Origin: Desulfovibrio sp.
Lineage (GTDB): Bacteria; Desulfobacterota; Desulfovibrionia; Desulfovibrionales; Desulfovibrionaceae
Assembly (NCBI GenBank): GCA_017396005.1
Contig: JAFQNG010000100.1
Span: 1-53,684, forward strand
Direction: 5' to 3'
DNA length: 53,684 bases
Positions 12,926-26,065 of the stretch are shown piece after piece (positions within the stretch are counted from its first letter, which is position 1; each line of letters opens with the position of its first letter). The position numbers and the translations under genes are program-made. Below the pieces are notes generated by a model. It ran no database searches. It was not told the DNA's origin and worked only from the letters and a program-made list of their open reading frames with translations.

Positions 12926-14899
12926 ATGCCACAACTAGCCTACGGCGTCTGGGACGGCGTCGCCTACGACAATCGCAAGGCCCGTGTTCCCGCGCAACCA
13001 CCTGACCTGGATCTGGAGATCTTTGCCCAGTTCAATGAAGGCAACCCTGCGGGCATGTTTATGAGCGACAGGGGCTTTCTGGTTTTTGACAATAAAATTT
13101 CCCTGCTCTGGGCACTGTGGAAACACTTCAGCCGCGTGGCTGATGAATCCTGCGGTAAATGCTCACCCTGCCGTACAGGTGCCCCCCTTCTGCGTGATGT
13201 ACTGGCCAAGGCCCTTCGCAACTCCAAGGTCGATTTGAGCTTACTGCGAGAGCTGGCCCAGCAGATGGTACAGACCTCTCTTTGCGGTGTAGGCAAGACC
13301 GGGCCAATGCCCCTCCTGCTGGCACTGGAGCACTTTCCCGATGATCTGCAGTATACGCGGGTGTCGGCCAAATATGGCTTCTACAGCGCTGTGACCAGCC
13401 CCTGTATTGAGGCCTGCCCGGGTATCGTCAATATTCCACGCTATATCGACTACATCAAGGATGGTCATGACGACCTGGCTGCCAATACGGTGCTGCGCCA
13501 TTACCCCCTGGTGGGCAGCTGCGGCCGTGTCTGCGTACGCACCTGTGAAAGTGCCTGCCGTCGAGCCAGGGTGGATGAAGCCGTCTCTATCAGAAATCTC
13601 AAGCGCTACGCTGCTGACAGGGCCATTGCTTCTGGCATGCTCAAACCGCAGGACTGTGCACCTACCAGAGAAGAAAGAGTCGCTGTGATTGGGGCCGGGC
13701 CTGTGGGTATTTCGTGCGCGTATCATTTGCTGGAGCGCGGCTATCAGGTGGATATCTATGAAGCCAAGGCCCAGGCCGGAGGTATGATACGCTACGGTAT
13801 CCCCATTTACCGCCTGCCCAAGCATACGCTGCAGGAAGAGACAGATATCGTAGCTACCATGGGCGGCAAGTTCTTTTTCAACCAGAAACTGGGACGGGAT
13901 TTCAGAGTCAATGATCTCTTTGCCCGTGGCTATAAGGCTGTCTTCATCAGCGGTGGCTGCCCGCAGGGCTCCTATCTGGGCATGGACGGCGAAGACACGC
14001 GACTGGAAGACTATGAAAACGGTATTGCCTTCTTGGAACGCGTTTATGACGGCGTAGAGGCGGGCAATCCGCCAACACTGGAAGGCGATGTGGTCGTTGT
14101 GGGTGGTGGTAACGTGGCTATGGACTGCTGCCGCGCCGCCAAACGCATCGCTACCGGCAAGGTGCATCTGATCTATCGCCGCACCGAGGCCGACGCCCCT
14201 GCCGATCATGAAGAAATAGTGGCAGCCAAGGCCGAGGGGGTGGAATTCCACTTCCTCTGCGGGCAGGATTCGCTGGTGGTGGAAGACGGTAAAATAGTGG
14301 GCCTGCGCGTTGTGGACATGGAGCAGACAGAGCCTGATGCCAGCGGTCGGCGCGGTGTGCGTGCCGTGCCGGACTCTGCGCATGTGCTGCCCTGTGCACA
14401 CGTCATCGCGGCCATCGGCCAGAAAGCCGACAGAAGCATGCTGGCTGACGACGAAGGTATTGAGCGCGACCGCAAGAACTGCATCATCATCAATACTGCC
14501 TATGAAACCAGTCGTACCGGTGTCTTTGCTGGTGGTGACTGCACTACCGGGCCACGTGCTTCCGGCCCCACCACCATGATCATGGGCATGGGGCATGCCT
14601 ACTTCGCAGCACGCTCTATTGAGCACTTTCTCAATACCGGGCAGTCCAGTTTTGACTCCCGCTGGCGCATGAGTGAGTGGATTGCCGCCGGCAGCCTGCT
14701 TGATGACAAGGAAGTCGTGCCCCTCAGAGAAAATATGCCCCGTGTGGCCCTGCGCGAACTGGAGCCTGCCGCGCGGCAGAGTAATTTTGAGGAAGTGGAA
14801 CAGACCATGTCTCAGGAAGAGGCCTGGGCCGAAGCATCGCGCTGCATGCGCTGCTACAGGGTGCTTTCGGTGGTGACAGAGGCCCCTATCCCTGTTTAG
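12926..14899 (+). CDS. NAD(P)-dependent oxidoreductase: NuoF-type Fe-S domain fused to GltD/NfnB-type flavoprotein
   Basis: The 657-residue protein combines two modules. The first (residues 40-140) resembles the C-terminal Fe-S domain of NuoF/HydB, with cysteines 76, 79 and 82 in ESCGKCSPC and Cys120, enough for one [4Fe-4S] cluster. It lacks the FMN/NADH-binding part of NuoF. The second (150-657) resembles the small subunit of glutamate synthase or NfnB: cysteines 160, 164, 199, 203, 207 and 211 for N-terminal clusters, an FAD Rossmann motif VIGAGPVG (254-261), an NAD(P) motif VVVGGGNVAMD, and the C-terminal GGD motif that closes the FAD site. A final CMRC motif lies near the C-terminus. The hydrogenase gene follows after 39 bases. 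It probably passes electrons between NAD(P)(H) and the hydrogenase. Direction, cofactor and any flavin-based bifurcation are unknown. Confidence 0.88.
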   Translation: MPQLAYGVWDGVAYDNRKARVPAQPPDLDLEIFAQFNEGNPAGMFMSDRGFLVFDNKISLLWALWKHFSRVADESCGKCSPCRTGAPLLRDVLAKALRNSKVDLSLLRELAQQMVQTSLCGVGKTGPMPLLLALEHFPDDLQYTRVSAKYGFYSAVTSPCIEACPGIVNIPRYIDYIKDGHDDLAANTVLRHYPLVGSCGRVCVRTCESACRRARVDEAVSIRNLKRYAADRAIASGMLKPQDCAPTREERVAVIGAGPVGISCAYHLLERGYQVDIYEAKAQAGGMIRYGIPIYRLPKHTLQEETDIVATMGGKFFFNQKLGRDFRVNDLFARGYKAVFISGGCPQGSYLGMDGEDTRLEDYENGIAFLERVYDGVEAGNPPTLEGDVVVVGGGNVAMDCCRAAKRIATGKVHLIYRRTEADAPADHEEIVAAKAEGVEFHFLCGQDSLVVEDGKIVGLRVVDMEQTEPDASGRRGVRAVPDSAHVLPCAHVIAAIGQKADRSMLADDEGIERDRKNCIIINTAYETSRTGVFAGGDCTTGPRASGPTTMIMGMGHAYFAARSIEHFLNTGQSSFDSRWRMSEWIAAGSLLDDKEVVPLRENMPRVALRELEPAARQSNFEEVEQTMSQEEAWAEASRCMRCYRVLSVVTEAPIPV

Positions 14900-14938
14900 A
14901 CGGCCTGAGCCCATTGAGAGAACGAAGAAGGATTTGCC

Positions 14939-16741
14939 ATGAAAGCATCTATCAACGGCAAGGAATATACGTTTGAGGCAGGTGAAAGCATTTTGCAGGT
15001 GGCACGGCGTAATGGCATCTTTATCCCCTCGCTCTGCCGCTTTGAACCGCTGAAGCACAAACCCGCCACATGCCGCGTCTGCCTGGCAGAAGTAACGGAT
15101 GAACAGGGCACGCGCATGGTCACTGCCTGCGACACACCCATGCAGGAGGGCATGCAGGTGGATACCTTCTCTCGTCATGTGCGAGACATGCAGCGCATGC
15201 AGGTAGAGATGATTTTCGCAGACCATGATCAGGAATGCGTCTCCTGTGCGCGCCATGGCGACTGTGAACTGCAGGACCTGGGCGAGGCTGTGGGCCTGGT
15301 GCGTAACCGTTTTACCAATAAACTGCAGCCGGCAGCTGCCGAGCGCCCCTTTGACGACAGCGCCACAGGCATGACACGCGACATGTCAAAGTGCATCCGC
15401 TGCCTGCGTTGCGTGGAAGTGTGCCGGCAGATACAGGGGGTGGCCGCCCTGACCGTGGACGGCAAGGGCCTGGAAGCCTGTATCGGCGTAGGTATGGCTG
15501 CAGATCATCGCTCGTCGGCCTGCATACAGTGCGGGCAGTGTACCCTGGTCTGTCCTACCGGTGCACTGGCTGAGCGTGATCAGAATGATATCGTGATGGA
15601 CTACCTGGCTGACCCGCAGGTCACCACGGTGTTCAGCTTTGCGCCTGCGGTACGCGTGCTGCTGGGTGAGGAATTCGGCTTCGCACCCGGCGTCAACGTG
15701 GAAGGCAGAATAGTGGCTGCCCTGCGACGTATCGGCGCCGATGTGGTGCTGGATACGGACTTTGCCGCTGACGTGGTCATCATGGAAGAAGGCACAGAAC
15801 TGCTGGAAAAGATCAAAAGCGGCGGCAGGCTGCCCATGTTCACCTCCTGCTGTCCGGGGTGGATCAACTATGCCGAAAAGCATTTCCCGGCCATTCTGCC
15901 TCATGTTTCCAGCACCCGCTCACCGCAGGCCGTTCTGGGCGCCCTTGCCAAAAGCTATCTGCCTCAGGCCATGGGCCTGGATGTTGCACGCATCCGCACT
16001 GTCTCTATCATGCCCTGCATTGCCAAGAAGGATGAGGCTGCCCGGCCGGAACTGGCAAATGACGGTGTACCGGATGTGGATGTGGTCATTACCATACGCG
16101 AGTTCGCCCGTCTGCTGCGGCGTATGGGTGTAGATCTGGCGGCCATTGATCCTGAGCCCTTTGACAATCCCTTCATGAGCGCCTCCACTGGTGCTGCCGT
16201 CATTTTCGGTTCTACCGGTGGTGTTATGGAGGCGGCCGTGCGTACGGTCTATGCTGTGCTCAATGGCAGGGAAATGGAGCACATTGCGTCTGAACCCCTG
16301 CGTGGCATGGATGGTGTGCGTGAGGCCGAGATAGACCTGGGCGAGGGTAACGGCAGCATCAGGGTAGCCATCTGCCATGGTCTGCGCAATGCCCGTATTC
16401 TTGCAGAGCAGGCCATCAGCGGGCAGTCTCCCTATGCGTTCATTGAGGTTATGGCCTGCCCGGGTGGCTGTGTGGATGGCGGCGGCACTTCACGCGTCAA
16501 GTGTGATTTCCACCCCGGTGCCCAGCTGCGGCAACAGGGCCTGTACGCCATGGATCGTTCCATGCCCCGCCGGCAGTCCCACAATAATCCGCAGGTTAAA
16601 AAGCTCTATGAAGACTTCCTGGGAGCGCCCAATTCAGAAAAGGCGCACCATCTGCTGCACACCGGCTATGCCGACCGCAGCGAAGTCCCCAGTCAGAGCA
16701 TTATGGACAATAAGCGCAGACTGACCCTGACAGAACAATAA
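14939..16741 (+). CDS. [FeFe]-hydrogenase catalytic subunit, M3-type
   Basis: The 600-residue enzyme makes or oxidises H2. In order it has a [2Fe-2S] ferredoxin domain (C33, C45, C48, C64), a His-Cys3 [4Fe-4S] site (H96, C100, C103, C109) and two [4Fe-4S] ferredoxin clusters (C152-C162 and C195-C205). The H-cluster domain follows with all three signatures: TSCCPGW (C304 for proton transfer, C305 ligand), MPCIAKKDE (C360) and EVMACPGGCVDGGG (C507, C511). A C-terminal HydB-like stretch (NPQVKKLYEDFL...) is present. No Tat or Sec signal is seen, so it is cytosolic, unlike the periplasmic HydAB of many Desulfovibrio. The accessory clusters and the NAD(P) flavoprotein upstream suggest soluble NAD(P)-linked H2 metabolism. 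The maturases HydE, HydF and HydG are not in the window. Confidence 0.95.
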   Translation: MKASINGKEYTFEAGESILQVARRNGIFIPSLCRFEPLKHKPATCRVCLAEVTDEQGTRMVTACDTPMQEGMQVDTFSRHVRDMQRMQVEMIFADHDQECVSCARHGDCELQDLGEAVGLVRNRFTNKLQPAAAERPFDDSATGMTRDMSKCIRCLRCVEVCRQIQGVAALTVDGKGLEACIGVGMAADHRSSACIQCGQCTLVCPTGALAERDQNDIVMDYLADPQVTTVFSFAPAVRVLLGEEFGFAPGVNVEGRIVAALRRIGADVVLDTDFAADVVIMEEGTELLEKIKSGGRLPMFTSCCPGWINYAEKHFPAILPHVSSTRSPQAVLGALAKSYLPQAMGLDVARIRTVSIMPCIAKKDEAARPELANDGVPDVDVVITIREFARLLRRMGVDLAAIDPEPFDNPFMSASTGAAVIFGSTGGVMEAAVRTVYAVLNGREMEHIASEPLRGMDGVREAEIDLGEGNGSIRVAICHGLRNARILAEQAISGQSPYAFIEVMACPGGCVDGGGTSRVKCDFHPGAQLRQQGLYAMDRSMPRRQSHNNPQVKKLYEDFLGAPNSEKAHHLLHTGYADRSEVPSQSIMDNKRRLTLTEQ

Positions 16742-16747
16742 AAGCCC

Positions 16748-16774
16748 ATGCGGCGGGGCATTGCCCCGCCGCAT
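16748..16774. terminator. Hairpin terminator after the hydrogenase operon
   Basis: ATGCGGCGGGGC and GCCCCGCCGCAT form a very GC-rich stem of about 12 bp, 7 bases after the hydrogenase stop and between convergent genes. It lacks a good T-tract, so termination may need Rho or work mainly by folding. Confidence 0.65.
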
Positions 16775-16799: not shown

Positions 16800-17675
16800 T
16801 TATTGAGCTGCAGACGTATCGCCCATGCGGCGCACCATGCAGCCCGGCATGACAGGCTGATCACCGATGAGACGCAGCTCCAGGGCGGCCCTGCCCTGTA
16901 TTCGTGCTCTGGCCTCGCCCAGGTGACGGCCTGTGGCGTCAGTCACTGCAAAGATTTCGCCGGGTCTGGGTGCCTCCTGAAAAGGCAGACACCAGAGCGT
17001 AGTATCCTCACCGGCTTTGAGACCACGTTTAACGCGAAAAATTTCATTGAGGCCCAGGGCACGCAGGGCAGCCTGGGTACGACGGCTCAGGGTGAAGTTG
17101 ACCAGGCCGCAGGCAAGGCCCACCAGCCCGAGACCAAGGGCAGCAAGAAAGGGGTTCAGGCCACTGTAGCGGCGCACCCACGAAAGTGCAGCCGCCTGCC
17201 GTGCGGCAGCGTCTTCCCACAGCAGGACGATGAATTCCAGGGCTTTGACAGGCGCGTTTCTGAAGCTCACATGAACGGTGCAGCGCTGCCTGTCTGCCAC
17301 CTCTTCGGCCGCAATGGCCCCGCGCCACATGCCTGTTCCGGTCCAGTAACTGGCATAGAAATCATCAAAGAGAAAACGTATGGGTGCGCCTTCAGGCTCT
17401 ATGCGTACGACCAGATCCGATGGTTTCGGCAGAGCACTGGGGCACGGGCCGGAAATTTCTTCACGTTCGCCGGGTATCAGATCAAGCTGATAGGCGCTGC
17501 CGCGTACTACGGCCTGCAGACCGTCCAGCATGGCCAGGATGGCGGCTGACAGGATGAGGGCGCTCCAGAAACCGGCAATCTGCTGCCGTCTGCGCAGATG
17601 CCGCAACATTGACCAGGCTTCCTGCACGGCATGGTGCTGTTCAGAAGAAGGAGGGGATGATGATTGGGCGTTCAT
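16800..17675 (-). CDS. Membrane protein of unknown function
   Basis: The 291-residue protein has two likely membrane helices (about residues 36-55 and 170-193). Between them lies a domain of about 110 residues (DLIPGEREEISG... to ...ALEFIVLLWED) that should be periplasmic. The first 33 residues and the last 95 should be cytoplasmic. The C-terminal part (LWCLPFQEAPRPGEIFAVTDATGRHLGEARARIQGRAALELRL) looks like a small beta domain. I do not recognise the family. It is the last gene on the minus strand downstream of the TauE/SafE operon, 48 bases after a two-helix membrane protein. It may therefore belong to the same transport or signalling function, although an internal hairpin at 18050 may separate the two groups. 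Function is unknown. Confidence 0.7.
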   Translation of the reverse strand: MNAQSSSPPSSEQHHAVQEAWSMLRHLRRRQQIAGFWSALILSAAILAMLDGLQAVVRGSAYQLDLIPGEREEISGPCPSALPKPSDLVVRIEPEGAPIRFLFDDFYASYWTGTGMWRGAIAAEEVADRQRCTVHVSFRNAPVKALEFIVLLWEDAAARQAAALSWVRRYSGLNPFLAALGLGLVGLACGLVNFTLSRRTQAALRALGLNEIFRVKRGLKAGEDTTLWCLPFQEAPRPGEIFAVTDATGRHLGEARARIQGRAALELRLIGDQPVMPGCMVRRMGDTSAAQ

Positions 17676-17723: not shown

Positions 17724-18032
17724 TCAGCGGCAGAGCAGTGTACGGCTGTCGTTTTCAACGACTCGCCATGTCACAAGGGCTGGTTTGTGGCCGGGCAGTT
17801 CCATATAGCTCTGATCTTCAGCAGGATAACGCCGTCTGATATACCGCATCAGCTGAAACGTGCCCACCCAGACGGGAATGGCACAGCCAAAAAACCAGAG
17901 GGAGAAGGTCAGCATGGCCGATGAGGAGGTGGAAACCTTGTACATGGCAAGGAAAACCGCGCCCAGCGTAAGCACATTGGCGGCGATGCGCACTGTGCCG
18001 GAATAAAAACTGCGTTTGTAGCTGCTGTTCAT
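17724..18032 (-). CDS. Small two-helix membrane protein of unknown function
   Basis: The 102-residue protein has two hydrophobic helices (about 15-31 and 40-62) separated by a very short loop. It ends in a charged tail starting RYIRRRYP, so both ends should face the cytoplasm. The ribosome-binding site GGGGGAAAGG just before the ATG is good. It lies between the lipoprotein gene of the TauE operon (across a hairpin) and the 291-residue membrane protein, all on the minus strand. I do not recognise the family. Confidence 0.7.
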   Translation of the reverse strand: MNSSYKRSFYSGTVRIAANVLTLGAVFLAMYKVSTSSSAMLTFSLWFFGCAIPVWVGTFQLMRYIRRRYPAEDQSYMELPGHKPALVTWRVVENDSRTLLCR

Positions 18033-18104: not shown

Positions 18105-18695
18105 CTATTTCTTGAAGATATTGGTCCGGGTGATGTTCATGAAACGCAGGGCCTGATGCTTGGCGTTCTCCTTATAGTAGAAGCGCACTTCGTCACCGGC
18201 TTCCCAAGTCTGCGGGGGCAGATGCAGCTTGTCTTCAGGCACCTTGAAGGTAACCAGTGCCTGCAGGCGGCGGGAGTATTCGGTGATGGTCTTGTTGGCT
18301 TCGTCGATGATGGGGAACTTCTTGCCAGCCACCATGGGGTGTGTAGGCTTGATGTTCATCTGCTTGTCAGTAAATTCGACGTTCAGCACTTCCAGACCCT
18401 TGGTGTCAGGGTTATAGATGGTAACAGTGCTCTTGTTCAGATCAAACATCACACGACCGCCGGGTACCGGCAACGGACCGATTTCGGCCGGATCAGAAGG
18501 CAGGATGTAGGTGGCTACCCCACCTGTGTATTCAGGGTTGCGCTGGTCATGCTTGACATCCAGCACTACAGTAACGGCTTTGGTATTGGCGTCAAAGGCG
18601 ACGCAACGCCCCTGTTCCACCTGGCCGAAGTCGCAGCCCGCAAGGCCGAGGCTGAGGGCCAGAACCAGCGTAAGCAGCAAATTGCGTATTTTCAT
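18105..18695 (-). CDS. DUF4881-like lipoprotein
   Basis: The 196-residue protein has a clear lipoprotein signal (MKIRNLLLTLVLALSLGLAGC, lipidated Cys21). It then has a mostly beta-strand body with repeated segments such as VTVVLDVKHDQRNP, GGRVMFDLN, VTIYNP and AGDEVRFYYKE. The start at 18695 is set by a GAGGAGG ribosome-binding site and the signal peptide. It resembles the DUF4881 lipoproteins I associate with Desulfovibrio, but I cannot confirm this by search. It lies 14 bases after tauE-like 18710-19765, so it is very probably co-transcribed. A lipoprotein encoded with a TauE/SafE exporter might capture or sense the exported anion. That role is inferred. Confidence 0.82.
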   Translation of the reverse strand: MKIRNLLLTLVLALSLGLAGCDFGQVEQGRCVAFDANTKAVTVVLDVKHDQRNPEYTGGVATYILPSDPAEIGPLPVPGGRVMFDLNKSTVTIYNPDTKGLEVLNVEFTDKQMNIKPTHPMVAGKKFPIIDEANKTITEYSRRLQALVTFKVPEDKLHLPPQTWEAGDEVRFYYKENAKHQALRFMNITRTNIFKK

Positions 18696-18709: not shown

Positions 18710-19765
18710 TTAGGCCTTTTGCTTCTTGGCAGCCAGCTCCGCCTTGGCGCCCTGCACCATACGGACGGTGATGTAGAGGGAAATGACAGTAACGAAGCCC
18801 AGCACCAGCACAGTGGACACGCCATTGATGAAGCCACCGTATTCGGGGAACATGGGCTGAATGAGCTTCAGGACAACGGAGCACAGGCAGCCCAGCACGG
18901 CGGTGCCGAAGGCTATGCGGATGCCATAGCCCTTGATGTACTTGGTGGCCACAGCGCCGATCTGTGCGCCGACAGCAGCACCGATGAGCATGATGAGGGC
19001 AGCCACGAGTTCGGTACGACCCTTGTAGGTATAGGAAGCCGCACCGTACAGGCCGGAGATGGCCACTTCAAAGAGGTCGGTCCCGACGGCCACGTGTGTG
19101 GGGCAGCCAACCAGGTAGACCAGGGCGGGCATGCGGATGAGACCGCCGCCGATGCCAAGGATACCGGCCAGCCAGCCAGTGGCCAGGCTGACGATGATGG
19201 GCAGCCATGCCGAACAGGTGATGCCTGCAGCGTGGAAGGTCATCATGGGCGGCACCTTGAAGGCGTGCAGCTTGCTGGCCCAGTCAAGACCCACAGCGGT
19301 TTCATCAAGCTTCTGACCTGCAGCAGAGGCTTCGCGTTCCTTCTTCTTGCGCAGGGCTACGTCATGGAAGACCAGCCAGGCGATGGAGATGAGCAGGACC
19401 ACATAGAGCCAGCGTACGACCTTGTCTACAGAGCCGATACGTTCCAGCCACATGATCATCTGGGCACCGATTTCCACGCCGATGACCGTACCGGCCAGCA
19501 TGGTGATACCAAGCTTGTAGTCCACGTTGCCGAACTTGCCGTGACGCATGGTGGAGATGAGCGATTTACCGGCCATGTGTGCCACGTCAGTGCCGATGGC
19601 GAAAGCCATGGGGAAGCCCAGGATGTTCAGACCGGGGGTCACCATCCACGCACCGCCCATACCGAAGAAGCCGCCGATGATACCGACGCCGAGGCCAAGG
19701 ATGATCAGGCCAGGCCAGAAAATCGTTACGCCGGAAATGGGCATCAAGACATACAACCAATCCAT
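18710..19765 (-). CDS. TauE/SafE family sulfite/anion exporter
   Basis: The 351-residue inner-membrane protein has about eight to nine hydrophobic segments. It shows the duplicated TauE/SafE signature: GLGVGIIGGFFGMGGAWMVTPGL in the first half and GWLAGILGIGGGLIRMPALVYLVG in the second, each with the Gly-rich turn followed by a proline. Family members export sulfite, sulfoacetate or related sulfur anions, or move other small anions. A charged cytoplasmic loop of about 45 residues (RKKKEREASAAGQKLDE...) separates the halves. The gene follows a small membrane protein and precedes a lipoprotein in one minus-strand unit under a predicted sigma-54 promoter. In a sulfate reducer, sulfite or taurine-derived sulfonates are sensible substrates, but this is inference. 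Confidence 0.92.
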   Translation of the reverse strand: MDWLYVLMPISGVTIFWPGLIILGLGVGIIGGFFGMGGAWMVTPGLNILGFPMAFAIGTDVAHMAGKSLISTMRHGKFGNVDYKLGITMLAGTVIGVEIGAQMIMWLERIGSVDKVVRWLYVVLLISIAWLVFHDVALRKKKEREASAAGQKLDETAVGLDWASKLHAFKVPPMMTFHAAGITCSAWLPIIVSLATGWLAGILGIGGGLIRMPALVYLVGCPTHVAVGTDLFEVAISGLYGAASYTYKGRTELVAALIMLIGAAVGAQIGAVATKYIKGYGIRIAFGTAVLGCLCSVVLKLIQPMFPEYGGFINGVSTVLVLGFVTVISLYITVRMVQGAKAELAAKKQKA

Positions 19766-19783: not shown

Positions 19784-20086
19784 CTAGTGTTCCGCCAGCT
19801 CGCGGTGTTTGAGGTCAATGCCGATATGCGACATCACGATGTCCGCCAGCACGCCGAAAATGCAGCCCACCACCGGGATGATGATGATGGTCAGGATGGT
19901 GAAGTACAGATGGCTGTCATTGTACATCTGGGCCCACCAGAGCATGATACCGTCAAGGCGGCGTGTATCAGCCACGATGACCACGTTGGCCGACTTTTTG
20001 GCGGCCAGGGCCACTGACGGCATGAGCACCAGCAGCGACAGGGCGCAAGCTGCGATGCTCGTCCAGAGTCTGCGCAATTTCTGCAT
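19784..20086 (-). CDS. Small exported membrane protein upstream of the TauE exporter
   Basis: The 100-residue protein has a cleavable signal peptide (MQKLRRLWTSIAACALSLLVLMPSVALA, predicted cleavage before AKKSANVV). A periplasmic segment of about 30 residues follows, then one membrane helix (FTILTIIIIPVVGCIFGVLADIV) and a short cytoplasmic tail. The start at 20086 was chosen because of the GGAGGA ribosome-binding site. An upstream ATG at 20098 is possible but lacks one. It is the first gene behind the predicted sigma-54 promoter and 18 bases before the exporter. I do not recognise the family. It may be an accessory subunit of the transporter. Confidence 0.8.
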   Translation of the reverse strand: MQKLRRLWTSIAACALSLLVLMPSVALAAKKSANVVIVADTRRLDGIMLWWAQMYNDSHLYFTILTIIIIPVVGCIFGVLADIVMSHIGIDLKHRELAEH

Positions 20087-20150
20087 AATGTCCTCCATGG
20101 TTTTGAACACAACTTGGGCAAACCGTTTGCCCTCGCACTTGTGAAAAGTA

Positions 20151-20167
20151 TAGCAAGGCATGTGCCA
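20151..20167 (-). promoter_or_regulatory. Sigma-54 (-24/-12) promoter of the TauE exporter operon
   Basis: Read on the minus strand the sequence is TGGCACATGCCTTGCTA. It matches the sigma-54 consensus TGGCAC-N5-TTGCW with GG and GC exactly 10 bases apart. Transcription should start near 20141, leaving a leader of about 55 bases before the first gene at 20086. A sigma-54 activator gene is divergent right next to it. Confidence 0.82.
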
Positions 20168-20209
20168 CTGCGCGTCTGCAAATCACGCAAAATCAGTAAA
20201 AGTCTTGAA

Positions 20210-20225
20210 TGGCAAGGCTATTGCC
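20210..20225. promoter_or_regulatory. Palindrome GGCAA-N5-TTGCC, possible operator or second -24/-12 element
   Basis: TGGCAAGGCTATTGCC contains a perfect inverted repeat (GGCAA / TTGCC) and keeps the GG-N10-GC spacing of sigma-54 promoters on both strands. As a promoter for the activator gene it would start transcription near 20236. As a palindrome it might instead be a binding site for the activator. Confidence 0.5.
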
Positions 20226-20259
20226 CTGAAAAAAAATTATGTATATAAAAAGCACAAGG

Positions 20260-20347
20260 TTGCGCAACTGGGCTTTCTTGCGCGAAATGGTGCTGTTTGC
20301 GCGATATGGGGGTGAGATGGAAGCAAAACGTAAGGGCTTGCGCGATA
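20260..20347 (+). repeat. Cluster of four TTGCGC motifs near the start of the sigma-54 activator
   Basis: TTGCGC begins at 20260 (inside the perfect palindrome GTTGCGCAAC, 20259-20268), 20278, 20297 and 20338. The last three extend to TTGCGCGA, and the last two to TTGCGCGATA. They lie about 90-190 bases upstream of the predicted sigma-54 promoter, where enhancer sites for activators usually sit. The final copy falls inside the coding region. Confidence 0.5.
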
Positions 20348-22881
20348 CTGGACAAAAAATCGTGACGTTTTTTCAGATCCGCAGCCTGGCAGGGCGCTTT
20401 CTTCTGACAGGGGCAGCATTGTTCAGCCTGCTGTTCCTGCTGATTGTTGTCATGCTCAATGTGACTGTTGAGCATGTCTTGCAAAGCGCAATTGCGCGCA
20501 ATGCGCAGCTTCAGGCACAGGCCATGAGCCTGGGGCTGGAGCAGATCCTGGCTGAAGCGCGCAATCAGCTGCTGATCCTGGCTGAAGGGTCGAAAGACAG
20601 GGCTGATATGATGCGGCGCCTTCAGATTCGTGTTCAGGCCAAGGGCCTGTACTATCGGGAGGTGGCTTTCATGGGGCTGGAGCCGGAAGACCGCTACCTC
20701 TATATCATTCATAATAAAGAAGTCATCGGTGTGCCTGAGCGTGTTTTCATGAGTGCGCCTGCCAGCCCCTTTCATATGATCAGCCAGGAGCAGAAGGCTG
20801 GTCAGGTCAATATCAGCCAGCCGCAGGAGGTGGTCTATTCTCTGCTGCCGGTGAATAAGGGGCTGCAGAGTGTTACCCTGCAGGTCATCCGTCTTTCAAC
20901 ACCTGTCTTTGCCGATGGCAGGCAGCAGGGAGTACTGACCCTTTCTTTGGATTTGAAAAGCCTGCGTAATGCCATGTCTCTCTATGCATCGCCGGACCTG
21001 CCTTTCGGCCATGGGGGTAAACCTCTGCGCAGCTTTTTTTTCGATAAGGAAGGATGGCTGCTTTTTCAGGCTGAACGCCTGGAGACCGAACACGATGCAG
21101 CACTCAGTTCCGGCTCTGTACGCGTAGGCTTCAGGGGGGATTTTGGTCGTCCCGGTTTCAGCCAGGCTTTTCGCCCGTCACCTGATCACGTGGATTACTG
21201 GAGTATGGTGGCTGAAACACAGGCGGGCAAAAGCGGGCAGATCGGTTTCGCAGATTTTGAATTACATCTGGCTGAGGGTGTGAGCTTTGCGCCGGTCAGC
21301 TTTGCGTCGTCCATGCAGGGGCAGCGCAATATTATCGGGGGTCTGGCCATCCTGGACAGCAATTTCACCATGGACCGTACTGCTGACAAGATACGGCTTA
21401 TTTACGCCTGTTTTTTCATCCTGGGCATGTTGCTGCTTGGGGCAAGCCTCTGGTGGCTGGTGCGTGGTATGGGCAGGAGCCTGAACAGGCTCTGCGTATC
21501 ACTGGAGAACTGCAACAGAAAGGATGAATACGCCATGCTGGATCTGCCCCCTCTGCCGCTGGAGGTGGAGAAGATCAGGGCTCAGATAGATTTTCTGCTG
21601 CAGCGGCTGGCCAGTGACAGGGCCAGGCGTCAGACACATGAGCGCGAGCAGTGGGAAAGCAGACAGCGCGAAGCTGTGGAAGATCTGCCACTGGCTCAGG
21701 ACTTGCCCGGTTGGGGGCTGGTAGGGCATTCGCCTTTGATGCAGGCACTCTTACACCAGTTGCAGAAAGCCGCACAGGTGGATGCTGATGTACTCATAGT
21801 AGGAGAGACCGGTACCGGTAAGGAGCTGGTGGCGGAATCCATCCATCGATCGAGCGCGCGGGCCAGTGGGCCTTATATCACCATTAACTGTGGGGCACTG
21901 GACGAGACATTGCTTATGGATACTCTTTTCGGGCATGTCAAAGGGGCCTTCACAGAAGCCAAACAGCCACGGAAGGGGGCTTTTCTGGCAGCTGAAGGGG
22001 GCACGCTCATGCTGGATGAAGTGGGCAACGCCACGCCCAAGGTACAGCAGGCCCTGTTGCGTGCTCTTTCCACCAGGCGTATCCGTCCTTTGGGATCAGA
22101 TCAGGATTTTGCCTTTGACACACGCATCATTGCCGCCACCAATGCTGAACTGCGCGGTGACGGACAGGACGGCAGTTTTCGCGATGACCTCTACTACCGC
22201 CTGGCCGTCATTTCCATACAGACACCACCGCTGCGTCAGCGTAAGGAGGATATTCCGGCGCTCATTGTGCAGTTTATGGCTGAAGCCGTGGCCGCTCACA
22301 GTCAGAGCATGCCGCGAACTGTTCCCATGCTCAGCCGGGGAGCGCTGTCAAAATTTATGGCCTATGACTGGCCGGGCAACGTACGGGAGCTGAAAAATAC
22401 CGTTACCAGGGCCCTGGCCTTTTGTGATGGCAATATGCTGCTTGCCGAGGATATTCAGCTTGATGCGGCTGCTCCGCCAGACAGGCTGACATCCCTGGTA
22501 AGGGCGACAACTGTGGAAGATGTTTTGCCCGGAGAACTTCCGTCTGCCGCCAGGCCTGCTATCAGTGAAAAACCGTCTGAAGAGGATCTTCGCAGCACGA
22601 CTGATACTGTCATCCCTTCCGGTGAGATGCAGGCTGTGGACGCGGGGGTGCCTCTCAACAGTCGGCAGCAGCAGATGCTGGCCCGTCTTTCCCGGATGGG
22701 CAGCATTACCCGGCAGGAATATCAGGACATGTCAGGCGGCAGTATTTCCATGCGTACGGCCCAGTATGATCTGCAGACATATGTACGTCTCGGCTACCTG
22801 CGCAGGGAAGGGCGCGGCCCCGCACAGCGCTATATCGTGCTGGATGGCTGCAGCGCAGCAGAGGGTGACAACGAGAGATAG
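20317..22881 (+). CDS. Membrane-anchored sigma-54-dependent transcriptional activator
   Basis: The protein has 854 residues from the ATG at 20317. Layout: a membrane helix at about 27-50, a periplasmic sensor of about 300 residues (Cache-like in strand pattern), a second helix at about 360-382, a coiled linker, and an AAA+ sigma-54 interaction domain at 464-715. Walker A is GETGTGKE (496-503), Walker B is GTLMLDE and the arginine region is RQRKEDI. The sigma-54-contact loop reads GAFTEA instead of GAFTGA. The C-terminus (about 779-845) looks like a winged helix (SITRQEYQDM...AQYDLQTYVRLGYLRREG), not the usual Fis-type HTH. The open frame begins at 20239, but that ATG would be next to the predicted transcript start, so 20317 (GGGGGTG upstream) is preferred. 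It probably senses a periplasmic ligand and controls the divergent TauE operon. Confidence 0.88.
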   Translation: MEAKRKGLRDTGQKIVTFFQIRSLAGRFLLTGAALFSLLFLLIVVMLNVTVEHVLQSAIARNAQLQAQAMSLGLEQILAEARNQLLILAEGSKDRADMMRRLQIRVQAKGLYYREVAFMGLEPEDRYLYIIHNKEVIGVPERVFMSAPASPFHMISQEQKAGQVNISQPQEVVYSLLPVNKGLQSVTLQVIRLSTPVFADGRQQGVLTLSLDLKSLRNAMSLYASPDLPFGHGGKPLRSFFFDKEGWLLFQAERLETEHDAALSSGSVRVGFRGDFGRPGFSQAFRPSPDHVDYWSMVAETQAGKSGQIGFADFELHLAEGVSFAPVSFASSMQGQRNIIGGLAILDSNFTMDRTADKIRLIYACFFILGMLLLGASLWWLVRGMGRSLNRLCVSLENCNRKDEYAMLDLPPLPLEVEKIRAQIDFLLQRLASDRARRQTHEREQWESRQREAVEDLPLAQDLPGWGLVGHSPLMQALLHQLQKAAQVDADVLIVGETGTGKELVAESIHRSSARASGPYITINCGALDETLLMDTLFGHVKGAFTEAKQPRKGAFLAAEGGTLMLDEVGNATPKVQQALLRALSTRRIRPLGSDQDFAFDTRIIAATNAELRGDGQDGSFRDDLYYRLAVISIQTPPLRQRKEDIPALIVQFMAEAVAAHSQSMPRTVPMLSRGALSKFMAYDWPGNVRELKNTVTRALAFCDGNMLLAEDIQLDAAAPPDRLTSLVRATTVEDVLPGELPSAARPAISEKPSEEDLRSTTDTVIPSGEMQAVDAGVPLNSRQQQMLARLSRMGSITRQEYQDMSGGSISMRTAQYDLQTYVRLGYLRREGRGPAQRYIVLDGCSAAEGDNER

Positions 22882-22893
22882 CGCAGCCCTTTA

Positions 22894-23562
22894 TCAGCGT
22901 GCACCGAAGCCGGGTATATGATAGCGGCGTTCCAGCCAGTGCAGGAGCCAGGTAGCCAGGGTGACCATACCGAGATAATACAGGCCCATGGTCAGAAAGA
23001 CCTCGGTAAAACGAAAGGTGTCTGAAGCCAGGGCTTTGCCGTGGCCCATGAGCTCCATGCAGGTGACCAGATAGGCCAGGGAGCTGTATTTGATGAGGTA
23101 AATAATCTCATTACCGCAGCCAGGCAGTGCTCTGCGGGCAGCCTGAGGAATGACAATCCAGATGATGGTCTGCAGAGTAGTAAAGCCCAGGGCCTGGGCA
23201 GCCTTGATCTGCCCCTGACGGATGGAAAGCAGCGCACCGCGGATATATTCGGACTGATAGGCAGCCGTACAGAGAGTGAATGAGGTCAGAGCCGCACCAT
23301 AGGGCTCAAAATAGATGCCCAGCTTGGGCAGTGCAAAATAGATCATCATCAGCTGCACTGCCAGAGGAACCCCCCGCAGCAGGGCTGTGTAGGCATCCCC
23401 CAGACGTCGCAGCCAGCGGGGCCCGAATGTGCGCAGGCAACCGAGCATGACACCACAGGCAAAACCCAGGGTCGCGGCCGGAATGATCAACCCCAGGGAA
23501 AGCAGCAGACCTTTGTTCAGGGTGGGTAGAACGTCCTGGCTGAGAAAAACTGTATCGATCAT
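22894..23562 (-). CDS. Polar amino-acid ABC transporter permease (second)
   Basis: The 222-residue inner-membrane protein has about five hydrophobic helices and the His/Glu/Gln/Arg/opine-type permease signature. The EAA-like coupling loop (RGALLSIRQGQIKAAQALGFTTLQTIIWIVIPQAARRALPG) contacts the ATPase. It is the last gene of the importer operon, 44 bases after the ATPase, and pairs with the permease at 24365 as a heterodimer. It converges on the sigma-54 activator with only 12 bases between the stops. No unusual features are seen. Confidence 0.92.
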   Translation of the reverse strand: MIDTVFLSQDVLPTLNKGLLLSLGLIIPAATLGFACGVMLGCLRTFGPRWLRRLGDAYTALLRGVPLAVQLMMIYFALPKLGIYFEPYGAALTSFTLCTAAYQSEYIRGALLSIRQGQIKAAQALGFTTLQTIIWIVIPQAARRALPGCGNEIIYLIKYSSLAYLVTCMELMGHGKALASDTFRFTEVFLTMGLYYLGMVTLATWLLHWLERRYHIPGFGAR

Positions 23563-23606
23563 ACTGGTGTCGTTTACCTGTTCAATTGCAGCAGCGTTGG
23601 TATGCT

Positions 23607-24362
23607 CTAGCCCATTTCCAGCAGCCTGGTGCAGAAATCACGGGTTCTGGTGGTGGAGCCCTCGGCCAACAGGGTTTCTGGTGCGCCCTGTTCGATTATT
23701 CGGCCGCGTTCCATGAAGAGGATTTCCGTGGCCAGAGCCCGGGCAAATTCCATTTGATGCGTAGCCATGATCATGGTCATGCCACCGCGTGCAAGATCAC
23801 GGATGACTGCCAGAACCTCCCCTACCAGTTCTGGATCCAGCGCAGAGGTGGGCTCGTCCAGCAGAATGACCTTGGGGTCCATGGCCAGGGCGCGGGCAAT
23901 GGCCACGCGCTGCTTCTGCCCTCCAGAAAGTTGTGCAGGGTAGAGCAGAGCTCGACGGGCAAGGCCTACCCGGCCAAGTTCCTCCATCGCCCGGGCCTTG
24001 GCTGCCCTGCGGTCCATGCCGCGCACCTTGCGCAGGGCAATGGCTACGTTTTCTTCAGCAGTCAGATGATCAAAGAGATTGAAATCCTGAAAAATCATGC
24101 CCACCTGGGCGCGATAGTCACAGAGTTTACGTGTATTTTTACGTTCCAGGCGTTCACCCTCCAGCCATATATCGCCACTGTCGGGTTGAATCAGGCAGTC
24201 AATGCATTGCAGAAGCGTACTTTTGCCTGCTCCAGACGGGCCTATGAGCACTTTCAGCTCACCCCTACGCACAGCCAGCGTACAGTCCTCAAGGATGGGT
24301 TTGCCACTCAGACTTTTGCTGATGCCCTCTATGCGCAAGACGATGTCGTCAGAGACCTTCAT
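23607..24362 (-). CDS. Polar amino-acid ABC transporter ATPase
   Basis: The 251-residue ATP-binding subunit drives import. It has Walker A (GPSGAGKST), the Q-loop (MIFQDFNLFDHLT), the ABC signature (LSGGQKQRVAIARAL), Walker B with catalytic Glu (VILLDEPTSALD) and the switch His (MATHQMEFA). The sequence is closest to GlnQ/HisP-type polar amino-acid transporters. It lies 2 bases downstream of one permease and 44 bases upstream of the other in the minus-strand operon. Confidence 0.95.
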   Translation of the reverse strand: MKVSDDIVLRIEGISKSLSGKPILEDCTLAVRRGELKVLIGPSGAGKSTLLQCIDCLIQPDSGDIWLEGERLERKNTRKLCDYRAQVGMIFQDFNLFDHLTAEENVAIALRKVRGMDRRAAKARAMEELGRVGLARRALLYPAQLSGGQKQRVAIARALAMDPKVILLDEPTSALDPELVGEVLAVIRDLARGGMTMIMATHQMEFARALATEILFMERGRIIEQGAPETLLAEGSTTRTRDFCTRLLEMG

Positions 24363-24364
24363 GA

Positions 24365-25042
24365 CTAGGCTATGCCTCCTGTGCTTGAATAGCCGGGAAC
24401 GTGGACCTTTTCTTCAAGACGGCGCAGAAGCTTGAGTACTGCCAGGGTCAGCAGAAAATAGATAAGGCCCGCTGCAGCATACAGCGCCAGATGTTCGTGC
24501 GTACGCGCAGCCACAAAGGAGGTGCGCGCCATAATATCCTGTGTGCCCAGCACGAAGCAGATGGCAGAGTCTTTGAGGAGGATGGAAAATTCGTTAGCCC
24601 AGCCGGGGATGGAAAGGCGCAGTGCCTGCGGCAGGATGATACAGGTGATACCTGTGCTGTCACTCATGCCCAGGGCACGCGCGGCCTTCAGCTGCCCCTG
24701 GGGCAGGCTCTGTATGGCACCTCTGAAAATCTGTGACTGATAGGCAGTGCTGGTACATCCCAGCACAAGGCAGCTCATGAGAAAAGGATGAGCAGGCAGA
24801 CCCAGCGAAAGGAAAAGACCAAAGCAGAGAAAAAGCAGCACCAGTATGGGAACGCCGCGGAAAAACCATACATAGATGTCTACCAGACGGCGCAGCCACG
24901 GGCAGCCATATACCTGGGCCACAGCAAGGGGGACGCCCAGTACCAGGCCCATGGCCAGAGAAATGGCAACATTGCCTGCCGTCACCACTGTGCCGGCGAG
25001 GATGGCAGGGAGGGCGTTAAGTACGACGCTGAGAGAATCCAT
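24365..25042 (-). CDS. Polar amino-acid ABC transporter permease (first)
   Basis: The 225-residue inner-membrane permease has about five hydrophobic helices and the coupling loop (RGAIQSLPQGQLKAARALGMSDSTGITCIILPQALRLSIPG) of the His/Glu/Gln/Arg family. It follows the binding-protein gene across an 88-base gap that contains a strong hairpin, and is followed at once by the ATPase. It is clearly related to the permease at 22894, so the two probably form a heterodimeric channel. Confidence 0.93.
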   Translation of the reverse strand: MDSLSVVLNALPAILAGTVVTAGNVAISLAMGLVLGVPLAVAQVYGCPWLRRLVDIYVWFFRGVPILVLLFLCFGLFLSLGLPAHPFLMSCLVLGCTSTAYQSQIFRGAIQSLPQGQLKAARALGMSDSTGITCIILPQALRLSIPGWANEFSILLKDSAICFVLGTQDIMARTSFVAARTHEHLALYAAAGLIYFLLTLAVLKLLRRLEEKVHVPGYSSTGGIA

Positions 25043-25071
25043 GCGGAAAGTCGGTCAAAAGTTGACGAAGA

Positions 25072-25110
25072 GCGCGACGCGGAGCAGCTCCAGACAAGCT
25101 CCGCGTCGCG
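25072..25110 (-). terminator. Intercistronic hairpin after the binding-protein gene
   Basis: CGCGACGCGGAGC (25073-25085) and GCTCCGCGTCGCG (25098-25110) make a perfect 13-bp stem with a 12-base loop, 20 bases after the stop of the binding-protein gene. No T-run follows on the minus strand. Such hairpins typically allow far more binding protein than membrane subunits, by partial termination or by protecting the upstream message. Confidence 0.75.
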
Positions 25111-25130
25111 TGCGACCAGACGTGTATGGA

Positions 25131-25874
25131 CTACTTGCTCAGATACTTCTTCTGCAGTTCTTTCCAGAAGGGGTCAGCCATGAGCTTGCGATAGCCCTCA
25201 TTGACAAGGGCCTGAAGTTCCTTGTCTTCCTTGCGGATGGCCACGCCAAACTGATCGGGCTTACCGTGGGTGCCGGCCTTCTTGACATTGCGGCCCTTGG
25301 AGATGGCGTCATCGGCAGGCAGTTCATCCATCAGGGCAGCCTGAATGCGGCCATTGAGCAGGTCAGCAATGGCCAGGGGAGCAGAGTCATAGAAGCGCAG
25401 TTCAAAGGGATAATTCTTTTCCTGCTGTTCCTGCTTGATGGCATTGGCTTCAGAAGTACCGCGCTGCACACCCAGCTGTATCTTCTGCTTGAGGATGTCG
25501 CCAGTAGCCAGCGTGGAATCGCCATGAATCACAAAGACACGCGAGACTGTCCAGTACGGGTCAGAGAAGGTGACCATCTTAGCCCGCTCAGGAGTAATGC
25601 TCATGCCAGAGCAGACCATGTCGATCTGCTTGCCAAGAAGGGCAGGGATGATACCATCCCAGGCCATGGGCTTATGGGTGATCTCAACTCCCATGGTCTT
25701 GGCTATCCAGTCCATGGATTCCACATCAAAGCCAGCCGGCTGTCCGGTTTTTTCATCTACATAGGCAAAAGGCGGATAGTTGGGGTCAATGCCGTTGACA
25801 TAACTTTTTTTGGCAAAAGCAGGTACCGCCGCCAGCATGACGGCCAACAGAGTACAGACAAGGATTTTTTTCAT
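25131..25874 (-). CDS. Polar amino-acid ABC transporter substrate-binding protein
   Basis: The 247-residue periplasmic protein has a signal peptide (MKKILVCTLLAVMLAAVPAFA, cleavage before KKSYVNG). It has the type II periplasmic binding fold of the polar amino-acid family: PNYPPFAYVDEKTGQPAGFDVE near the start, and MSITPERAKMVTFSDPYW with the Arg that binds the ligand carboxylate. The start at 25874 was chosen because it opens the signal peptide. The open frame extends to 25967 without a plausible signal. It is the first gene of the importer operon and is divergent from a glycosyl transferase gene. The substrate may be a neutral or basic amino acid, but this cannot be decided by eye. Confidence 0.93.
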   Translation of the reverse strand: MKKILVCTLLAVMLAAVPAFAKKSYVNGIDPNYPPFAYVDEKTGQPAGFDVESMDWIAKTMGVEITHKPMAWDGIIPALLGKQIDMVCSGMSITPERAKMVTFSDPYWTVSRVFVIHGDSTLATGDILKQKIQLGVQRGTSEANAIKQEQQEKNYPFELRFYDSAPLAIADLLNGRIQAALMDELPADDAISKGRNVKKAGTHGKPDQFGVAIRKEDKELQALVNEGYRKLMADPFWKELQKKYLSK

Positions 25875-26065
25875 ATTCCCCCCGAAAGAAATGAAACAGA
25901 AGGTACGGGGGCAGACTGCCGCACGGCAGCTGCCTAAACAGCAGTTTATTAGCAGATGCGCGCGCACTGCGCAAGGTCATGGTGCACTTCTTGCTTTCTC
26001 CGTCAAGGGAAGATAAGATATATATCCTGTTAGTCTTCTTGCATGTTTGTCAGGGTTGCTGTTCA

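Follow-up and report, generated by a model that had tools for sequence, protein, structure and literature searches.

A predicted sigma-54 circuit linking a divergent membrane activator to a five-gene TSUP transporter operon in Desulfovibrio

The window analysed here, that is, the whole stretch of 53,684 nucleotides of contig JAFQNG010000100.1 (a gut-type Desulfovibrio sp., assembly GCA_017396005.1), carries a five-gene operon on the minus strand and, divergent from it, the gene of a one-component membrane protein of the sigma-54 activator class, with a sigma-54 promoter element between the two. Control of DVU0150-DVU0146 by the regulator DVU0151 in D. vulgaris was predicted earlier by Kazakov et al. 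(2015; PMC4641369). The window locus looks like an ortholog of that circuit, to which it is likened by the published description and the gene order; a DVU0150-family first gene, a five-gene operon and a divergent one-component activator are all found here. From the comparisons described below, it is highly probable that the locus would work as a DVU0151-type circuit, in which the divergent membrane activator turns on the five-gene operon through the sigma-54 promoter. The features of the locus are as follows.

20152 to 20167, minus strand: predicted sigma-54 promoter, with the -24 part TGGCAC at 20167-20162 and the -12 part TTGCT at 20156-20152, assigned by consensus match and conservation.
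20141, minus strand: transcription start predicted from the sequence, 12 nt past the -12 C at 20153.
19784 to 20086, minus strand: first operon gene, a DVU0150-family small membrane protein of 100 residues (NF040783).
18710 to 19765, minus strand: second operon gene, a TauE/SafE (TSUP) family transporter of 351 residues (PF01925).
18105 to 18695, minus strand: third operon gene, a DUF4881 lipoprotein of 196 residues, with a lipobox LAGC seen by eye.
17724 to 18032, minus strand: fourth operon gene, a small membrane protein of 102 residues, mainly genus-restricted.
16800 to 17675, minus strand: fifth and last operon gene, a membrane protein of 291 residues, kept in many relatives.
16748 to 16774, minus strand: terminator-like hairpin of 12 pairs, directly past the operon end.
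20317 to 22881, plus strand: one-component membrane sigma-54 activator of 854 residues, an apparent DVU0151 ortholog.
22648 to 22848, plus strand: winged-helix-like C-terminal region of the activator.

The promoter element, TGGCACATGCCTTGCT, occupies positions 20167-20152 of the minus strand. The initial annotation had reported a sigma-54 consensus match, TGGCACATGCCTTGCTA, at 20167-20151 of this strand with GG-N10-GC spacing, and both sequence and spacing are found there. A scan of the window with the pattern TGGCAYRNNNNTTGCW, allowing up to two mismatches, gave 38 matches, which together are at chance level (shuffle mean 47.8); only the promoter element has zero mismatches (12/12 specified positions). 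Across the assembly as a whole, which comprises 100 contigs and 2.26 Mb at 85.6% completeness and includes rpoN, there are 13 exact matches, compared with one for the reversed control pattern. Position 20141, around which the mapping of transcript ends had been suggested, coincides with the predicted transcription start. The ATG at 20161 lies upstream of this start, and the first gene is therefore best started at 20086; the predicted leader, from 20141 to the ATG at 20086, is 55 nt long and contains a GGAGG.

The DVU0150-family profile NF040783 was found in 131 of the 297 genomes examined in the order, and 136 neighbourhoods of about 10 kb, some of them ending at contig ends, were compared. 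In 121 of these and in the window, under 900 bp separate the start of the divergent activator from the first gene, giving a set of 122 loci; the other 15 were left out, the activator being missing, further off, elsewhere or cut off. With GG-N10-GC required, at least 11 of the 12 positions are matched between the two genes in 117/122 loci, as against 0.6% of shuffles, the scores being 12/12 in 83 loci, 11 in 34, 10 in two and fewer in three. When GG and GC were not required, 118 loci reach at least 11 at a spacing of 10, whereas 0, 0, 1 and 4 loci reach 11 at spacings of 8, 9, 11 and 12, respectively. Among the left-out loci, the four whose activator sits at a greater distance or in another place (L131, L164, L089 and L092) have best elements of 12, 11, 11 and 11. 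In 23 loci the distance from promoter to first gene is about 500 bp or more, and all of these have a universal-stress-protein match in the neighbourhood (31 of the 136 loci overall have one); among the few loci checked, a Usp gene between promoter and first gene was confirmed in L111, L227, L232 and L235 (by Pfam Usp on L227). We regard the predicted sigma-54 promoter as very probably real.

Among the outcomes that would refute it, the initial annotation had named close relatives in which the operon is kept and the -24/-12 element is lost. Within the genus, the element is kept in 46/46 activator-bearing relatives and in one of the eight without activator, the seven losses being in L104, L079, L080, L081, L137, L125 and L136. 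In the genus, the element is thus lost only where the activator is also lost, which supports a link between promoter and activator. The activator-less set comprises ten rows (L061 was left out as a contig end), which need four changes on the transporter tree; the eight loci of the genus sit at three places on it (L104/L079/L080/L081/L137; L125/L136; L143), which makes three separate losses of the activator. In the whole genomes of these eight, two of them assemblies 82-86% complete, the best match to the activator covers the AAA+ region only, and rpoN is present in all eight. In L111 and L123, which belong to other families, an 11/12 element is found 701 and 597 bp upstream. By eye, L079, L080, L081 and L137 appear to retain promoter fossils, in which the -12 part and the bases downstream of it are recognisable and the -24 part is not.

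The stretch from the promoter to the activator gene contains a recurrent motif that resembles WTCRCGCAA. Four copies in the window are strong, one of these falling within the activator's opening codons, and a fifth, at 97 bp, is weaker:

20295 to 20307: candidate site (ATATCGCGCAAAC on the minus strand), 134 bp upstream of -24.
20276 to 20288: candidate site (ATTTCGCGCAAGA on the minus strand), 115 bp upstream of -24.
20258 to 20270: weaker candidate site, palindromic TTGCGCAA, 97 bp upstream of -24.
20180 to 20192: candidate site (AAATCACGCAAAA on the plus strand), 19 bp upstream of -24.
20336 to 20348: candidate site (GTATCGCGCAAGC on the minus strand), within the opening codons of the activator gene.

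When trained outside the genus and tested inside it, the motif gave 2.02 sites per locus compared with 0.17 in shuffles, with at least two sites in 36/46 loci; trained inside and tested outside, it gave 1.84 compared with 0.17, with at least two in 43/73. At least one site lies within 300 bp in 89 of the 119 activator-bearing loci of the order. Of the other 12 exact sigma-54 matches of the window's genome, 11 are without a site over an upstream stretch of up to 200 bp (only 27 bases in L212), and one has a single site. Activator-less loci of the genus have no site in six of eight cases, one in L104 and two in L143. Outside the order, where the element was caught by the pattern, a site is present in one of 15 activator-less loci (L234), and the activator-bearing L257, L258 and L261 have two to three. 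The motif, which largely tracks the activator, is probably its binding site. By a loose pattern, a site-like copy directly abuts -24 in 36/119 loci; the copy in the window is weak (6.9 bits).

The gene adjoining the promoter had been described as that of a divergent sigma-54 activator with its own periplasmic sensor. It is indeed divergent, and its product matches Sigma54_activat (PF00158) with 200.4 bits (cut-off 20.2) and has a sensor region between two hydrophobic stretches, at about residues 29-47 and 356-374. This region models confidently as a periplasmic dCache domain, that is, a double-Cache fold between two transmembrane helices; the predicted assignment of this fold to the sensor is new here. 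The dCache profile PF02743 stays below its cut-off in the window protein (28-31 bits, against 45), and is matched at E up to 0.01 in 45 of 74 family members. Sensor columns conserved at 90% or more lie mostly in the membrane-proximal half (16/114 columns, compared with 5/151). The residues of the Walker A and B motifs and the arginine finger are present and near invariant, indicating that the ATPase is under selection. The loop that contacts sigma-54 reads GAFTEA in the window and GAF(T/S)EA in the family; its fifth residue, the second glycine of GAFTGA, is Glu in 114 of 120 full-length relatives, Asp in four, Ala in one and Gly in one. The C-terminal regions of 48 activators match winged-helix families (DIP2311-like_C in 26/48), with no match over the curated cut-off in the eight regions whose scores are shown. 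A Fis helix-turn-helix (HTH_8) was found neither in the window activator nor, at E up to 0.05, in the 48 C-terminal regions.

In the mechanism that we propose, the membrane-anchored one-component activator would sense a small periplasmic ligand by its dCache domain, and its winged-helix C terminus would bind the WTCRCGCAA sites between the divergent genes. Its AAA+ ring would then open the sigma-54 RNA polymerase bound at 20152-20167, acting in activation rather than repression, and opening would turn on the DVU0150-family protein, the TSUP transporter, the DUF4881 lipoprotein and the two membrane proteins. On comparative grounds, it is very likely that the divergent protein activates the operon: the dependence on a sigma-54 promoter and a divergent one-component membrane activator, as put forward in the initial annotation, agrees with the conservation, the joint loss and the site motif.

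Several observations weigh against such a circuit. There is no site within 300 bp in 30 of the 119 activator-bearing loci of the order, and none in six activator-bearing loci outside it in which the element was caught (L248, L249, L251, L253, L254 and L262), so that the site is not common to every branch. The three lowest-scoring loci of the 122 (L115, L150 and L154) have a -12 part TTGAT, not TTGCT, about 500 bp upstream. Outside the order, by hand count, in 9/17 activator-bearing loci an element scoring at least 11 points from the activator toward the operon or, in L257, a contig end, and 8/17 have no such element (L264 is cut by a contig end); in L251 and L252 the only element between the genes faces the activator. 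L143 is without activator and yet keeps an 11/12 promoter and two sites. Finally, according to PMC2941729, a glutamate at the second glycine of GAFTGA makes NorR non-functional.

The last two points also favour a different explanation, in which the promoter depends on sigma-54 but is opened by another activator of the cell, such as a two-component response regulator, the divergent protein serving mainly for repression or co-regulation; the loop glutamate, with its 114 of 120 occurrences, would bar contact with sigma-54. Consistent with this, of 20 Desulfobacterota loci picked by hand that have the operon and lack the activator (L227-L246), 17, by hand count, keep an element of at least 11/12 upstream and in the right direction, the three others being L228, L236 and L237, and in L227 a kinase and a Fis-type sigma-54 response regulator adjoin the operon. 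We nevertheless hold this explanation to be improbable. The promoter is gone in seven of the eight activator-less loci of the genus, most of which also have no sites, and this is not expected if another activator drove the promoter there; the Walker and arginine finger residues are near invariant; and Kazakov et al. (PMC4641369) list GAFSEA among the loop variants that would keep activity. It could also be supposed that the element, being a short motif with no more near-matches in the window (38) than chance would give, is itself a chance match and that a sigma-70 promoter drives the operon. This is exceedingly unlikely: it is contradicted by the comparative counts of conservation, spacing control and co-loss, and a simple consensus scan upstream of the first gene gave no sigma-70-like site.

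If the divergent protein does activate the operon, an order-wide lineage of activators has fixed a glutamate in its loop and yet drives textbook -24/-12 promoters, and the contact with sigma-54 or the relay of the sensor signal must therefore have been retuned. Perhaps the transmembrane dCache domain gates the loop directly. The site-like copies that abut -24 in 36/119 loci would, in addition, imply activation, or blocking in the off state, from very close by. We offer this scheme as tentative and rather unlikely. The loop glutamate would be a natural case for how the sigma-54 contact loop tolerates this residue.

The initial annotation had further supposed the ligand to be a sulfur anion such as sulfite or a sulfonate. 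Nothing supports this claim, which derives solely from the TauE/SafE family name, and "sulfite exporter" is a family name only. A broader version, in which sulfur oxyanions or sulfonates are both ligand and cargo, periplasmic sulfite being sensed and cytoplasmic sulfite exported, is favoured by the membership of the transporter in the TSUP family and by dsrA, which is over cut-off in 14/14 genomes with the operon and 4/6 without it (20 hand-picked genomes, a small and unpatterned sample). However, for sulfate reducers, a review of their sulfate transporters (PMC5840216) treats TSUP function as not predictable and the substrates as unassigned, the neighbours named among relatives comprise two-component proteins along with a PPDK-like dikinase and a universal stress protein, and a dCache fold names no ligand; the sulfur version is, in our estimation, doubtful. 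The inducer of the circuit would be a route to the cargo of a sulfate-reducer TSUP transporter.

With regard to the operon itself, the earlier description as an exporter operon with a lipoprotein holds for the TauE protein and the lipoprotein; it needed mending in that the first gene is of the DVU0150 family and the lipoprotein is encoded by the third. The first protein matches NF040783 with 147 bits (cut-off 70) and the second TauE PF01925 with 146.6 bits (cut-off 32.6); no solved structure matched the transporter by sequence at E up to 0.1. The fourth and fifth membrane proteins were assigned no family in the profile search; if the gene order is the same, they take the places of DVU0147 and DVU0146. 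The leader contains a perfect inverted repeat at 20116-20132, GGGCAAACGGTTTGCCC, which the scan scored as terminator-like. Convergent with the operon end are two plus-strand genes (12926-16741), encoding a flavoprotein-type NAD(P)-binding protein and an [FeFe]-hydrogenase large subunit with ferredoxin domains. Beyond the activator lie amino-acid-type ABC transporter genes (22894-25967, minus strand), one permease and the binding protein being assigned by Pfam and the ATPase and second permease by reading of the open reading frames only.

Among the relatives, a dikinase-like gene (PPDK_N and PEP-utilizers, no further Pfam domain reported) is nearby in 95/136 near and 22/38 far loci, for example at L143:5515-8310 and L229:1053-3686, and in 90 of those 95 near loci it lies on the other strand, upstream of the operon. 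It is not at the window locus; the best match in the window's genome is on another contig, at 34% identity. In L227 (3638-9972, outside the order), the operon opens with a universal stress protein gene, followed by the histidine kinase and the Fis-type response regulator, and the element is kept. Six genomes have two copies of the system (L138/L140, L121/L158, L128/L159, L144/L155, L042/L149 and L148/L153), one copy being of a second type without clear match to the window's lipoprotein.

The listing of DVU0151 and its target in PMC4641369 makes the circuit itself an already published prediction, and no experiment on a DVU0150-DVU0146-type operon was found in the literature searched. What was predicted in 2015 is now supported on many more genomes, with a proposed binding site and sensor fold, and promoter and sites are seen to decay where the activator is lost. 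As described in that paper, DVU0151 of D. vulgaris Hildenborough is a one-component regulator divergent from a sigma-54 promoter with a five-gene target, has a long conserved N terminus and has orthologs with a winged helix rather than Fis, all as here; its loop is GAFSEA, compared with GAFTEA in the window activator, and its N-terminal domain was left as unknown there, whereas the window sensor models as dCache. NorR and other one-component enhancer-binding proteins likewise combine a sensor domain with an AAA+ sigma-54 activator domain. NorR is cytoplasmic and carries a Fis domain. In the norR-norVW system, as here, the region between regulator and target holds several sites, and NorR has a GAF sensor and the loop GAFTGA (PMC2941729), whereas the window activator is transmembrane, dCache-like and winged-helix-like, with GAFTEA. 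From the dCache sensors of chemoreceptors and kinases (such as TlpA and TlpC of H. pylori and TlpQ of P. aeruginosa), the window activator differs in that its output is a sigma-54 AAA+ domain.
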